A DNA stretch of 64,000 bases from contig JAFRJE010000023.1 in the NCBI GenBank assembly GCA_017432425.1, positions 1 through 64,000 of the forward strand, written 5' to 3'. The notes under the pieces are model-generated. The model was given only the letters and a program-made list of their open reading frames with translations. It did not search any database and had not been told where the DNA came from. The position numbers and the translations under genes are program-made. Of the stretch, positions 19,047 to 32,409 are shown one piece after another (the stretch's first letter is position 1; each line of letters starts with the position of its first letter). This stretch comes from Candidatus Saccharimonadota bacterium. GTDB taxonomy: Bacteria; Patescibacteriota; Saccharimonadia; Saccharimonadales; Saccharimonadaceae.

Positions 19047-19180
19047 ATATATTATATTAACATCTTTTCGAAAAGAAATAAACATAAGTTATATCATAAA
19101 TTGGCTATGCTTGCTAATTTATTTTGTTTTTAGTAAAATTCTGTTTTAAGAATATTTTAAGGTTAACCAAAGGAAAAAAT

Positions 19181-22100
19181 ATGAGCTTAAAGAAAAGAAT
19201 ATTAAGTTTCTTTACGGCGTTCTTGATGATTTTCGGAAGCACTCCGTTTGTTTTTGAGAACGCGAGCGCGGAAGAAAACTCGCACGAAGGCGCATTAAAT
19301 GCTGATGGTGAAGCATTTAAGCCGGACGCATCGAAAAAACTAGATTCGAACGGAGACGGAACTTATACAATTACATTGTCCGTTACCGGAAAGGCACAAT
19401 CAACTACTACGACGACAAAAGCTAATGTTTTAGTTGTTTTTGACACGTCTGGGAGTATGGGGGATCGGGAATGTCTAAGATATACTGGAACTGGCTGGGG
19501 TCGACGTTGCGCCGAATATTCGACGAGGTTACAAGTAGCGAAAGACGCAGTTAATTCCTTAGCTGAAGATTTACTCAGCAACAACACCGAAGCAAATCCT
19601 GATATGGTTGAGCTCGCCTTTATTGATTTTTCCTCTAATGTTAACGATAAGACTTCCATAATAACTTCTTATGATACCGGTTCGAATAACGACGCCAAAA
19701 ATTGGATTAACGGACGAGGAGCCACTGGAGGGACGAACTGGGAAGCCGCGCTAAAAGCTGCGAATGAATTTTCTTTTGATGACGAGGACCAAACTTATAT
19801 CATTTTTGTTTCTGATGGTAATCCGACTTTTAGGTTAACTTCTCACGAGGCGACGGATGACCAGCGCGTTTGGATTGGTAATAGTTGGAATGGTCATTAT
19901 GAGACTACGGACACGGATGAATTCTATTATCCAAGCTATAGTGGCGGAAATGACACGCTTCATGATTCCAGACGACATACCGACGGAACTTATGGAACCG
20001 GTGTTGGAGATCACTATGGCTGGAACTTATCTGACGCAAAAACGCAGGCGACTGCTATTACGACTGCCGGGAAAAAGTTCTACGCGGTCGGAACCTTTGG
20101 CGACGCGGATAATATGAACGAATTGGGCGGAGAATATTACGACGCGACAGATTCAGAAAAGTTAAACGCAGCTTTTTCGAAAATTGCTTCTCAGATTACC
20201 AATAGCCTTAACCTAAAAGACGTTGAGTTCGACGACGGAATTACGACAATGACTCAAGTCGCGTCTTCGATGGTTGACGGCGAGCCGACTGGTTTTACAT
20301 ATACCTTAAACGGAAATACTGTCGATAAAATCGGAACTGTAAGCCTAGACAATAACAATGTCGCGTGGGAAGTCGGAGACTTAGGAAACGGAGACGTCGC
20401 AACGCTATCCTTTATCGTCTGGCCAAAACAGGAAGCCTACGATTTAATTGCCGATTTAGACAATGGAGTAAAAAACTACGACGACCTGACCGATGATGAA
20501 AAATACCAAATTGAAAAAACAGCAGACGGTCATTATAACCTAAAGACTAATACCGAGAGTCCGAAACTTTACTATAAGACTATTGAAACGATTGATGGAG
20601 TTCCTGGCGAACTCAGCGCAGAAAAGTATATTACGATTGAAAATCCAGACCCAGTTCCAGTTAATGATCTAAAGGTTCCTCTAATGAAACTTTGGAATGA
20701 TTCGCTGGACAATACCCAAAGGCTAGACAAAAATAATCCGATTAAAGAAATTACGCTCGAATTGACAAGAACTGATGTAGAAACTGACACAACGCAAACC
20801 GTCGCAATTAAACATGACGGGGAAACTATTTCTGAATTTAAGTTGACGAAAGATTCGACAGTTGATGAACAAGTTTCGTTCGAGGGCGAGAGTTATGATG
20901 CATGGGTTTATGAACACGAAATCGCAATTGCGCCTGGCGAAATGATTTCTAATAGCTCCGATAACTATGAATTATTAAAGGGGACTGGAAAGTTTAAAGA
21001 AATCGACAATTATCTAATTCTCGACGAAGGATATGACTATAAATTTAACGAGATAAGTGGTGATTATCATTTTGAATTAGAAAATATAATTTATCATCCG
21101 ATGATTATTGATGGAGAACTTAAGAGCGTCGTTATTGAACGCGATTCTAGCGGAAAAATTACCGAACTAAAAATTGAGGATTCGGTAGCAATTTACGCGA
21201 TGAATACACTAAAGGGCGGGATCAATGTTTCTAAAGTCGTTTACAAAAATGATAGTGATAAACCTTACGAGACTAATGAATCGTTTAAAGTTAAAATTAC
21301 TTTAGAAAAAGATGGCGAACCTTATAATTACGATTATAGAGTTTATACTTATTCTAATGTCGAACATACCGGCGAAGCGAATGTTAGCGGTCATATTTGT
21401 AGTACTGGGAACGAAAACGGTAACTGTGGCGAAGTTACAAATCAAAGTGGAATAATCGAAGCAGAAATCACTCCATACGATGTAATTCGAGTTATCAACG
21501 TCGAATCAGGAGTAAAATATAAAGTTGAGGAATTGGATGCAAATTCTAAACTAGGATATAGTCCTAAAACGATTAATTATTTCTTGAATGACGAAGAAGT
21601 AGAGGGCGAAAACGGTTTTTATACGGTATTCGGGAATACCGCCTCAAATGCAGTCGTTGTTAACAACTACTATACTGGAGCGTTAAAAATTTCTAAGACC
21701 GTTACGGTTGAGAGCGGGAACGAGAAGGCCGCAAAAGCAAAAACGTTTAACTTTACGGCGACGATTAAAGACGGCGAAAAAACTATTAAAACCGAAACTT
21801 GCGAACTTAAACACGGCGAAAACTGCGAAATTAAAGATTTGCCTGCTGGCGCAACTTATGAAGTTTCCGAAACGGAAGTAGAAGGATTTACGATGTCCTC
21901 CGAAAACGAAACCGGAACGATTGAAAAAGAAGAAACAAAAACAGCCGCATTTACGAACACTTATAAACTTTCGGGCAGCGAGGCGACGATTACTGTTAAA
22001 AAAGACTTCGGGAGTTTCTGGCATACGGATTTGAAGAGCGGGCTTGCGGATACATTTATCTTCATTCTCAAAGATTCTAAAGGGGAAGTTATTGGGCGAA

Positions 22101-23266
22101 AAGAAGTTACGGAAACTTTGAAAGACAGCGTAAAGTTTATTGTTCCGATCGAGATTAACGAAAAAATTGACGAAAACGGAAAGACGTTTAACTTCACGGT
22201 TACGGAAGACGAGAATTTTACGCGCGGCGGAATTAGTCGTGTAAAAGATGACGAAGATATAGAAGTAGCGATTGTTGCGAAAGACGACGGAAAGGGCGGG
22301 ATTACGTTCGAGGAAGCGGAACTTTCTAAGGATACGATTTACAATACTTACGAAGCGACCGGTTCGCTTACGCTTCAGGCGAAGAAAGTCTTAGAAGGAC
22401 GCGAATGGCTGGATTCTGATAAGTTTAGCTTTGAACTTAAAAACGAAGACGGCGAAACTTTAGATACCGCCGAGGTTTCCATGAAAGACGTCGAAGACGA
22501 GGTCGCGGACTTTAGCTTCGAAGAACTAGAGTTTACTGAAGCTGACGCCGGAAAAACTTATACTTATACGATTTCCGAGACCGGTACGCTTCCGGCTGGC
22601 GTCGAAAATACGACCGGAGACATTACTGTTACGGTTGAGATTTCCGACAATTATGACGGGACGTTGACCGTTACGGCAGAATATTCAGAAGAAAACCAGA
22701 CGTTTATTAACGAATATTCAACAAAAGCGACGGACGCGGAAGACTTTGTCGTTAAAGTTAGCAAAGAGATTGTCGATGATTCCGAAGACCAGACGGCGGA
22801 AGATACAGAATTCGCCTTTATAATCAAGGGACTTTGTGAAGAATTTGAGGATTATAGCGAGACAATTTATGTTACGACGGAAGATCTAATCGGAAGCGGA
22901 GCGTTTTCTGGAATTAGCTTCGACGAGGTTGGAGAATACCAGTTCGAGGTTTCCGAAGTCAATGACGAAAAAGAGTATTTTGAGTATGATACGTCGACTT
23001 ACGTCGTTACGGTTGTCGTCGAAGACGACTATGAAACCGCCCAGCTTTATATAGCTTCGAAGACGGTTGACGAAGAAGAAAAAGAAGAAATCGACTTAGA
23101 CTTCGAGAACCATTATAACGAACCTGGACGCGGAGAAGTTGAGGAACCTGAAGAAACGGAAACGAATCCATATACACGCGATAATATTTCCCTCTTTATT
23201 TCACTATACATCATTTCCTTAATCGGATTTGTCGGGGCGATTGTCTACGCGAAAAAGCGAATCTAG
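19181..23266 (+). CDS. Giant vWA/pilin-type surface adhesin with sorting-like tail
   Basis: This 1361-residue protein starts at ATG 19181 (MSLKKRIL), 6 nt after AAAGGA. It has a signal peptide (cut near ENASA-EE) and a von Willebrand A domain from about 45 to 340 with the metal site DTSGSMG. Several immunoglobulin-like modules of Cna-B and Spy0128 type follow, each ending near a (N)TY or NEY segment typical of streptococcal pilins. The tail has an acidic linker, NPYTRDN, a hydrophobic segment and the basic end KKRI. This is the layout of a sortase substrate with NPxTx in place of LPxTG. It resembles tip pilins of Gram-positive bacteria and probably binds a host surface. No sortase is in the window. 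Confidence 0.85.
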   Translation: MSLKKRILSFFTAFLMIFGSTPFVFENASAEENSHEGALNADGEAFKPDASKKLDSNGDGTYTITLSVTGKAQSTTTTTKANVLVVFDTSGSMGDRECLRYTGTGWGRRCAEYSTRLQVAKDAVNSLAEDLLSNNTEANPDMVELAFIDFSSNVNDKTSIITSYDTGSNNDAKNWINGRGATGGTNWEAALKAANEFSFDDEDQTYIIFVSDGNPTFRLTSHEATDDQRVWIGNSWNGHYETTDTDEFYYPSYSGGNDTLHDSRRHTDGTYGTGVGDHYGWNLSDAKTQATAITTAGKKFYAVGTFGDADNMNELGGEYYDATDSEKLNAAFSKIASQITNSLNLKDVEFDDGITTMTQVASSMVDGEPTGFTYTLNGNTVDKIGTVSLDNNNVAWEVGDLGNGDVATLSFIVWPKQEAYDLIADLDNGVKNYDDLTDDEKYQIEKTADGHYNLKTNTESPKLYYKTIETIDGVPGELSAEKYITIENPDPVPVNDLKVPLMKLWNDSLDNTQRLDKNNPIKEITLELTRTDVETDTTQTVAIKHDGETISEFKLTKDSTVDEQVSFEGESYDAWVYEHEIAIAPGEMISNSSDNYELLKGTGKFKEIDNYLILDEGYDYKFNEISGDYHFELENIIYHPMIIDGELKSVVIERDSSGKITELKIEDSVAIYAMNTLKGGINVSKVVYKNDSDKPYETNESFKVKITLEKDGEPYNYDYRVYTYSNVEHTGEANVSGHICSTGNENGNCGEVTNQSGIIEAEITPYDVIRVINVESGVKYKVEELDANSKLGYSPKTINYFLNDEEVEGENGFYTVFGNTASNAVVVNNYYTGALKISKTVTVESGNEKAAKAKTFNFTATIKDGEKTIKTETCELKHGENCEIKDLPAGATYEVSETEVEGFTMSSENETGTIEKEETKTAAFTNTYKLSGSEATITVKKDFGSFWHTDLKSGLADTFIFILKDSKGEVIGRKEVTETLKDSVKFIVPIEINEKIDENGKTFNFTVTEDENFTRGGISRVKDDEDIEVAIVAKDDGKGGITFEEAELSKDTIYNTYEATGSLTLQAKKVLEGREWLDSDKFSFELKNEDGETLDTAEVSMKDVEDEVADFSFEELEFTEADAGKTYTYTISETGTLPAGVENTTGDITVTVEISDNYDGTLTVTAEYSEENQTFINEYSTKATDAEDFVVKVSKEIVDDSEDQTAEDTEFAFIIKGLCEEFEDYSETIYVTTEDLIGSGAFSGISFDEVGEYQFEVSEVNDEKEYFEYDTSTYVVTVVVEDDYETAQLYIASKTVDEEEKEEIDLDFENHYNEPGRGEVEEPEETETNPYTRDNISLFISLYIISLIGFVGAIVYAKKRI

Positions 23267-30399: not shown

Positions 30400-31329
30400 G
30401 TGCGGAAAAGCAATTATACTTTTTATGACCTATTAAAACTTTATAAGTTGCGCGCGGCGGCGAGAGGATTTTCGCCAAAAACAGTTCGGGCGACGGAATC
30501 GAACCTTAGAATGATTAGTCAATTTTTTAATTTAGAAACGAAAGTCCGGAAATTTCGGGAGGAAGATTATAAGAAATTTTTAATCGCGCTTCGAAAATCG
30601 GATTATTCGCGAGAGACGATGTATGATTTAAACGCAACTTTAAGGAAGCTAATTAACCTCGCGAGAAAACAGAAGTTAGTTAAATTTGATTTTTCGGAAA
30701 CGGGAAATATTCGTTTAAACAATTCAGAAGAATATAAATTAATTTCGGGAGAGGATTTTCGGAAAATTAGAGAATATTTTAATGAGCGCGGAGAGCGGGA
30801 ATTTGAGTTTCTGTTTTTGTTACTTTATTATACAGGAATCCGGATTGGAGAGGCGTTAGCGTTAAGGCGAGAGGATTTTAAAATTTATCCGCGGGAAAGA
30901 GACGGACGAATTTTAGTCAATAAATCATATCTTTATGAATTCAAACTAATCAAGGAACCGAAGAATAAAAAGAATCGAGTCGTTCCTATTCCGAGAGCTG
31001 TCGCGAAACTTTTTCAAGAGACTTTCGAAAAAACGCCGGTGGGAGAGCGGATTTTTCAGTTTTCGCCAAATGCGGCGAATCTTGCACTAAAGCGGGCGGC
31101 GAAAGTAAAAGGGGTTCCGGAGTTTCATTGTCATTCGTTTCGACACACATATATTTCCAATTTAGCGAGGAAGAGGGTTCCACTTCCGGTTATTTCGAGC
31201 GTTTCGGGAGATACGCAAAAGACGGTTTTAAGTCGGTATAGCCACATGTTTTTTGAGGACGAGAAACTAGTTCTTAAGGCACTTTCGGCTGCCGAATATG
31301 CAGCGAAGCCAGAGGGATACCGCTCGTAG
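30400..31329 (+). CDS. Tyrosine recombinase, probable pilin invertase
   Basis: This 309-residue protein has a SAM-like N-terminal core-binding domain (about 5-95) and a tyrosine recombinase catalytic domain. R148 lies in TGIRIGEAL, a lysine in the 185-191 loop, HxxR at 245-248 in CHSFRHT, and the nucleophile Y280 in RYSH. The usual second His/Trp is D271 (SGDTQ where GHSS is common). GTG start, AAAGGAG 7 nt upstream. Codons 297-307 (AAEYAAKPEGY) are exactly the 33-bp repeat at 31288-31320, so the gene runs into the invertible segment and its last residues depend on orientation (YRS here, predicted YAKTK after inversion). By position it resembles Rci of the R64 shufflon; Xer-like housekeeping is less likely. 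Confidence 0.88.
   Translation: MRKSNYTFYDLLKLYKLRAAARGFSPKTVRATESNLRMISQFFNLETKVRKFREEDYKKFLIALRKSDYSRETMYDLNATLRKLINLARKQKLVKFDFSETGNIRLNNSEEYKLISGEDFRKIREYFNERGEREFEFLFLLLYYTGIRIGEALALRREDFKIYPRERDGRILVNKSYLYEFKLIKEPKNKKNRVVPIPRAVAKLFQETFEKTPVGERIFQFSPNAANLALKRAAKVKGVPEFHCHSFRHTYISNLARKRVPLPVISSVSGDTQKTVLSRYSHMFFEDEKLVLKALSAAEYAAKPEGYRS
31288..31320 (+). repeat. Left inverted repeat / recombination site
   Basis: These 33 bp are identical to the reverse complement of 32207-32239. They contain the dyad GCTGC-CGAATAT-GCAGC, two 5-bp arms around a 7-bp spacer, which is the usual form of a tyrosine recombinase crossover site. They encode AAEYAAKPEGY in the recombinase frame and LPNMQRSQRD in the pilin frame. 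Confidence 0.93.
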
Positions 31330-31753
31330 AAATGACTACGCAGCCTTTTCCGCAAATATCACGAACTATATTACGAATAATAACGGCAATTTACCGGCTG
31401 ATTACACGACATGGTGTAGCAACACTAGCACTAACGCAAAATGTCTAAATCCGAAGAAATATATTAACACTGAGGGGGTTGACCAGTCTGGAAAGTCCTA
31501 CTTAACGGCAATCGTAACTTGCGATGGATCAAGCGCTGGCGACCAATGCAATAACAGCCAAATAAGACAAGGGACCGGATCTAGCACCGGAGTAATGATG
31601 CCAATTTCGCAAAACGACCAAGCGCACGTTTTACTTGTAAAGTCGGCTGCTTGTGGTACTAATCAGGGGACCGTCGTGAAGTCTAGCGGCAACCGCGATT
31701 ATGCTATTCTCGGTCAGCTCGAATCCGGCGTTTATTGCCAAGACAACGTATAA
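31289..31753 (+). CDS. Silent type IV pilin C-terminal cassette
   Basis: The frame runs LPNMQRSQRDTARRNDY at its start and NRDYAILGQLESGVYC near its end, homologous over its whole length to the pilin on the opposite strand (LPNMQRSQRDTQRRNDY and SRNFAIYGQLENGTYC). The middle is strongly diverged, including different cysteine spacing. It lacks the leader peptide, the hydrophobic assembly helix, a ribosome site and a promoter, so it is not expressed as a pilin in this orientation. An internal ATG at 31298 could start a useless 151-residue product. It is best read as a stored alternative C-terminus. Confidence 0.85.
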   Translation: MPNMQRSQRDTARRNDYAAFSANITNYITNNNGNLPADYTTWCSNTSTNAKCLNPKKYINTEGVDQSGKSYLTAIVTCDGSSAGDQCNNSQIRQGTGSSTGVMMPISQNDQAHVLLVKSAACGTNQGTVVKSSGNRDYAILGQLESGVYCQDNV

Positions 31754-31765
31754 GAAGCGACCTTT

Positions 31766-31795
31766 AAAAATACCCCTCGCGAGGGGTATTTTTTT
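31766..31795. terminator. Bidirectional terminator shared by both pilin cassettes
   Basis: The perfect palindrome TACCCCTCGCGAGGGGTA (31771-31788) is flanked by A5 on the left and T7 on the right, so it forms a hairpin with a U tract when read from either side. It sits between the two converging stop codons. Confidence 0.95.
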
Positions 31796-31809: not shown

Positions 31810-32340
31810 CTATTGAGATGCCATACAATAAGTACCATTCTCTAACTGACCGTAGATGGCAAAGTTACGAGAACCGGTTTTGAAAGCTGGTTTCGAGTAG
31901 CCAGTAGCATCATCCGTACCGCTACAGTCAGCTTGTTGATAAACGATAACTATGCTTCCGGCATCGGTCGTAGCCTCCGAGAGAGAAGCCACTGTGTTGC
32001 TACCAGCCGACAACTGTTTTACGCTAAGTTTATACTTATTTCCTGTCGGATCCTCGCCGGTTGAATTTAGGTAGCGATCTTGCTGCGCACAAATCCCACT
32101 TAACGTCGCGGCAGAACCGTCACACGCAGCGGGGAACTTTCCGTTATTATTGGTCATATAGTTAGAGATGTTCGTATTGAGGGTCGAATAATCATTTCGT
32201 CTTTGCGTATCCCTCTGGCTTCGCTGCATATTCGGCAGCGCAATGAAGACCATCAAGAAGATAAGACCAGCAATCGCGAGGACGAGAACGACTTCGATAA
32301 TCGTAAAGCCTTTTTTAGAGTTTATATTTAGGGTTTTCAT
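31810..32340 (-). CDS. Type IV pilin-like protein (currently expressed form)
   Basis: This 176-residue prepilin has a short basic leader ending in KKG, processed before FTIIEVVLVLAIAGLIF; the conserved E5 of mature type IV pilins is present. The N-terminal helix continues to about residue 40, then the repeat-encoded LPNMQRSQRD, then a globular domain with cysteines (for example in CDGSAATLSGIC, ADCSGTD, TYCMAS). ATG 32340 is preferred; a TTG three codons earlier lies closer to AAGGA. A -35/-10 promoter with a 17-bp spacer lies upstream. Downstream of the repeat the sequence belongs to the invertible segment. It is probably the main pilin of a type IV pilus or competence fibre. Confidence 0.9.
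   Translation of the reverse strand: MKTLNINSKKGFTIIEVVLVLAIAGLIFLMVFIALPNMQRSQRDTQRRNDYSTLNTNISNYMTNNNGKFPAACDGSAATLSGICAQQDRYLNSTGEDPTGNKYKLSVKQLSAGSNTVASLSEATTDAGSIVIVYQQADCSGTDDATGYSKPAFKTGSRNFAIYGQLENGTYCMASQ
32207..32239 (-). repeat. Right inverted repeat / recombination site
   Basis: Exact inverted copy of 31288-31320, lying inside the expressed pilin gene where the assembly helix ends and the variable domain begins. Identity stops sharply at both edges apart from codons needed for the shared residues R-N-D-Y. Confidence 0.93.
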
Positions 32341-32380
32341 AGTTTTCAACTATTCCTTTCTATTTTTAGTACTTAAAGAT

Positions 32381-32409
32381 AATATACTAAATTTTCAAAC
32401 AAATTTCAA
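32381..32409 (-). promoter_or_regulatory. Promoter of the pilin gene
   Basis: On the minus strand TTGAAA (32404-32409) and TATATT (32381-32386) are 17 bp apart. It lies outside the invertible segment, so it would drive either pilin form. Confidence 0.6.

Follow-up and report, generated by a model that had tools for sequence, protein, structure and literature searches.

A tyrosine recombinase gene and a type IV pilin gene lie close together in the 64 kb stretch of Saccharibacterium DNA analysed here (the window), and each contains one copy of an inverted repeat that, at the recombinase gene, is read in two frames. This raises the question of whether the DNA between the two copies inverts, with what consequence for the pilin, and whether the recombinase is itself altered in a meaningful way. 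The locus is very probably a two-state site-specific inversion switch for the pilin, comparable to a minimal shufflon.

In the proposed mechanism, the adjacent tyrosine recombinase would bind two inverted sites, each with arms of about 12 bp around a 7 bp core, of which one lies within the region coding for the pilin alpha-1 helix and one at the 3′ end of the recombinase gene itself. A 952 bp inversion would then replace tail A of the pilin with tail B, while promoter, signal and membrane helix stay fixed. Either orientation would yield a complete pilin that displays one or the other exposed domain, rather than an ON/OFF change. We infer both the exact crossover point and the catalysis of inversion by the adjacent recombinase.

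Anatomy of the proposed invertible segment

The 33 bp repeat at the recombinase gene (31288–31320, forward strand) has a single exact reverse-complement copy at the pilin gene (32207–32239, reverse strand), and the pair encloses 952 bp. It is the longest inverted repeat across the whole window, and inverted repeats in 100 shuffles of the region reached a maximum of 13 bp. No further copy with up to three mismatches was found in the 0.71 Mb genome, which holds two copies of the site rather than the several sfx-separated segments of the R64 shufflon.

The expressed pilin gene, in the tail A state (31810–32349, reverse strand), starts at TTG 32349 or ATG 32340 and encodes the prepilin motif KKGFTIIEV. 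It scored 24.2 bits against PF07963 (cut-off 21.2) and was also above the cut-off for TIGR02532. The assignment as a type IV pilin draws on this motif, the hydrophobic alpha-1 helix and the assembly ATPases in the genome, which encodes three T2SSE-family ATPases of the T4P type; a fold search with the pilin model gave no significant match. The 5′ part of the gene, coding for the signal and membrane helix (32240–32349, reverse strand), lies outside the invertible segment, as does a sigma-70-like promoter upstream of the pilin (TTGAAA-17-TATATT, 32381–32409, reverse strand), predicted from 10/12 consensus matches only.

Silent pilin tail B (31298–31753, forward strand; 151 codons) comes with neither a promoter nor a start region nor a membrane helix, and its pilin homology starts at the site. 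The invertible segment is made up of two pilin C-terminal regions placed back to back, with a single fixed pilin start outside it. Since this one start serves both tails, inversion would exchange about four-fifths of the pilin. In silico inversion left the pilin open both ways, with lengths of 179 and 191 aa from the TTG start. In the AlphaFold model the alpha-1 helix spans residues 14–64 and the crossover falls mid-helix, at residues ~36–46, so that all exposed parts of the pilin are predicted to be exchanged. Mid-segment, between the stops of tails A and B, is a bidirectional terminator-like hairpin (AAAAATACCCCTCGCGAGGGGTATTTTTTT, 31765–31795; −16.8 kcal/mol, z −3.97) with T runs on both strands, which as predicted can terminate transcription in either orientation.

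The recombinase gene (30400–31329, forward strand) encodes 309 aa from a GTG start after AAAGGAGAG. The product scored 62.4 bits against Pfam Phage_integrase (cut-off 27.1), and residues R148, H245, R248 and Y280 were invariant in five aligned enzymes. Fold matches were headed by Tn1549 Int and also included Cre, XerH and XerA. At 31195–31221 the motif SGDTQ, with Asp271, replaces the usual third His/Trp of LGH, and is likewise invariant in the five enzymes.

The 33 bp repeat appears to be built like a tyrosine-recombinase site, with a 7 bp core and arms as in the shufflon sfx. With arm and core boundaries picked after sequence inspection, the proposed elements of the recombinase-side copy are a 12 bp left arm ACTTTCGGCTGC (31281–31292), the core CGAATAT (31293–31299) and a right arm GCAGCGAAGCCA (31300–31311). 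The pilin-side copy has the same core and right arm, preceded by the proposed left arm TCATTGCGCTGC; the two left arms are alike at 8/12 positions. The sfx site of R64 is described as a 7 bp core with a conserved right arm and a variable left arm (PMC11852207). The dyad around the core, for these post hoc boundaries, matched at 7/9 positions in the window pilin and in its counterpart in the second genome described below, compared with 3–6/9 among 27 ordinary pilins from the same genus.

A second instance and selection on the silent tail

Recombinase relatives were retrieved with an alignment query against genome contigs. A close match was present in two of the 174 genomes of the genus, as compared with 165 for the pilin, and the scan of all 174 yielded two instances of the switch module. 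The second is in Candidatus Saccharibacteria RGIG5734 from sheep ileum (G287). Its layout is as in the window, with a 38 bp repeat, the core CGACCAT, nearly identical left arms at its two sites and the same overlap of recombinase and pilin frames. In silico inversion gave open pilins, with both tails intact in either state. The two recombinases are 43–44% identical and paired in the tree (91/88), next to enzymes of Clostridia and Lachnospiraceae, a position that points to an old transfer between these groups. Both assemblies are in the same state, with tail B silent. Over the site, the window and G287 pilins use the same codon at 7/10 shared amino acids, against an all-pairs mean of 0.31, and an identical-codon fraction as high was seen in 11 of 406 pilin pairs; immediately upstream of the site, codon identity between the two was average.

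The tails B of the two genomes grouped as orthologs (98/90), and tail A of the window clustered with ordinary pilins of two other genomes, G216 and G269. Between the two tails B, pN was 0.28 and pS 0.77, the latter saturated, with pN below pS in 300/300 bootstraps. Judged from these values, silent tail B is under strong purifying selection, with its reading frame intact in both genomes. A never-expressed sequence would lack such constraint, so tail B must be expressed at times, which implies that inversion would be the means of its expression. We regard this constraint as the best indirect sign that the switch turns.

The same evidence bears on the possibility that the segment is a dead or passive duplication, in which a truncated pilin lies beside an unrelated integrase and gene conversion or homologous recombination maintains the repeat. 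Several pilin copies per genome are a common arrangement in the genus, often in convergent order and without a recombinase, and homology between the silent and expressed copies extends past the 33 bp, to 113 nt at 75%, as such a duplication would allow. This account is nevertheless unlikely given that the silent tail has an open frame and shows purifying selection in each of the two species, that the same anatomy recurs with a 43%-identical recombinase and that the homology of the silent copy starts at the site.

Convergent pilins were also observed at four loci of relatives, L095 (4040–5965), L096 (965–2045), L097 (4433–5539) and L098 (4313–6036), each with two or three full genes and without a recombinase. 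In L095 and L098, exact inverted repeats of 20–26 bp fall within the region coding for the pilin N-terminus. The convergent pilins of these loci could be shuffled by homologous recombination.

Equally unlikely is that the recombinase and silent tail form a mobile element of Tn916/Tn1549-like ancestry that integrates beside pilins, with inversion secondary or absent. The nearest other relatives of the enzyme are Firmicutes recombinases, and the fold search placed Tn1549 Int first. The module also occupies different loci: in the window, pilin and module lie between trmD and obg, and the G287 module is flanked by a pilin and a DUF362-like gene. The neighbours of the G287 locus (EF-Tu, pilin, DUF362-like and pot genes) occur in G269 without the module. 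Against this, no other mobile genes accompany the recombinase, searches of phage and plasmid collections found no relative of it, and the window pilin also lies at a different place. Since the sites are inverted rather than direct, there is no visible integration product.

Elsewhere in the window, a gene at 19124–23266 (forward strand) encodes a 1380-aa surface protein, by eye a VWA/Cna-type adhesin, beside DUF362-like and pot genes. Its position is where relatives carry EF-Tu and a pilin. The obg matches in G287 and G361 (L109 and L116) carry one internal stop codon each, possibly assembly errors or a match-boundary artefact.

No inverted repeat comparable to that of the switch was found near the Firmicutes relatives of the recombinase. 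The flanking DNA examined for further tyrosine recombinases from the genus and phylum (L007–L011 and L100–L102) contained no prepilin-type pilin, and among these loci only L009 had an inverted repeat (16 bp seed). One Firmicutes relative is just upstream of an apparent sortase pilus operon (L013, 4752–8542) and another just upstream of a large repetitive surface protein (L015, 124–6314), a hint that the recombinase family is often tied to surface structures.

The frame overlap and the recombinase tail

The sequence-only reading had drawn attention to the site as coding for two proteins in two frames, and its coordinates and translations were confirmed: the recombinase frame gives AAEYAAKPEGY (residues 297–307) and, one base on, the pilin frame gives LPNMQRSQRD. 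A single recombination site thus holds pilin code, recombinase code and a probable binding site together. It was also correct that recombination keeps both frames, pilin and recombinase being open in either orientation in silico, and that the recombinase, now 309 aa ending GYRS, would after inversion have 311 aa ending GYAKTK. The equivalence of 33 bp to 11 codons carries no weight as a frame-keeping feature, since frame is kept at any repeat length when the crossover is inside identical repeats; a length chosen for frame keeping was rejected on the 38 bp repeat of G287.

The conserved core of the recombinase extends to about residue 296. Just 13 residues lie beyond it, 11 encoded by the site (297–307) and two by the silent pilin tail (308–309), and there is no extra C-terminal domain of the Rci type; a helper protein for the recombinase may be conceivable. 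The earlier proposal of a built-in bias or feedback, in which the activity or stability of the recombinase would depend on whether its tail reads RS or AKTK, is now very unlikely. The tail does differ by orientation, the overlap and its frame are retained in G287, and a role in cooperative binding has been proposed for the C-terminal extension of Rci (PMC11852207). When the C-termini were compared, however, no tail pattern was shared, those of G287 after the site being RKTQ or the 19-residue PAQERLRRLRCEHHELPNK, and in the predicted model residues 287–309 were at pLDDT < 50.

Selection on the overlap also argues against control by the tail. Among site codons that differ between the window and G287, 4/4 changes are replacements in the recombinase frame and 2/3 are synonymous in the pilin frame; few as these changes are, they point weakly to an overlap constrained in the pilin frame and not in the recombinase frame. 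The equivalent of the recombinase frame is also open by chance in about half of ordinary pilins, so its openness is no evidence of selection. The likeliest origin of the overlap is a truncated pilin copy that begins at the site, immediately downstream of the recombinase core and not separated from it by a stop codon.

The more distant relatives also speak against the proposal. The sequence-only reading had itself named a recombinase stop before the repeat in relatives as evidence against the proposal, and of the three Firmicutes relatives whose C-terminus could be read, two have ALEDL or ALENL as their last residues, exactly where the repeat would start. The third continues past the core end for a few unrelated residues. 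What stands of the proposal is that the last residues differ with orientation, while their functional importance is unsupported. The orientation-dependent last 2–4 residues are most likely neutral, a by-product and not a control, although the tail may have a small effect on inversion rate. That the recombinase reads its own switch state, the silent tail writing its last residues and a change in activity or stability biasing the ratio of pilin states, is likewise very unlikely.

Comparison with known systems and implications

The proposed pilin inversion switch is close in anatomy to the R64/IncI shufflon (Rci, sfx, PilV), in which a tyrosine recombinase beside the segment swaps pilin C-termini behind a constant N-terminus. 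The same elements are present here on the evidence of sequence, a tyrosine invertase adjoining inverted repeats that would select pilin C-termini, and the proposed window site has an identical core and right arm with left arms that differ, as described for sfx, although the left arms of G287 are nearly identical. The differences are that one segment carries two tails here and several segments are present there, that the site is inside the recombinase coding sequence, that the Rci-type C-terminal domain is absent, that the module is chromosomal in Saccharibacteria and that the protein may be a major pilin and not a tip adhesin.

In Moraxella bovis and Moraxella lacunata, Marrs in 1988 (cited in PMC11868660) is said to have described one inversion that places either of two pilin 3′ parts after a single start. 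The proposed window switch shares this single-inversion plan with the Piv system, but Piv is a DEDD (IS110-type) recombinase and the enzyme here is a tyrosine recombinase of the Phage_integrase family. SSV1-type archaeal integrases have the attachment site within their own gene, which integration breaks. The site likewise overlaps the recombinase coding sequence here and recombination would alter the product, but the change would be confined to its last few residues and no gene would be broken.

Saccharibacteria are ultra-small obligate epibionts. Their pili contribute to host binding (PMC12206443), and the two-pilus systems of the related Nanosynbacter lyticus TM7x use PilA-type pilins in host binding and twitching. 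The pilin studied here is similar in being a PilA-type pilin of a Saccharibacterium; TM7x, in contrast, has multiple fixed pilin genes, and the available text does not mention DNA inversion (PMC12206443). No DNA-inversion switch in Saccharibacteria was found described in the literature searched, and the pilin switch looks both real and little known. Its operation would be expected to give two subpopulations with different pilus surfaces, and the likely phenotype is a change in host-cell binding, or else evasion of phage or host. If this is true, these epibionts would alter at high frequency the surface with which they make contact, perhaps changing host or escaping phage or host defences.
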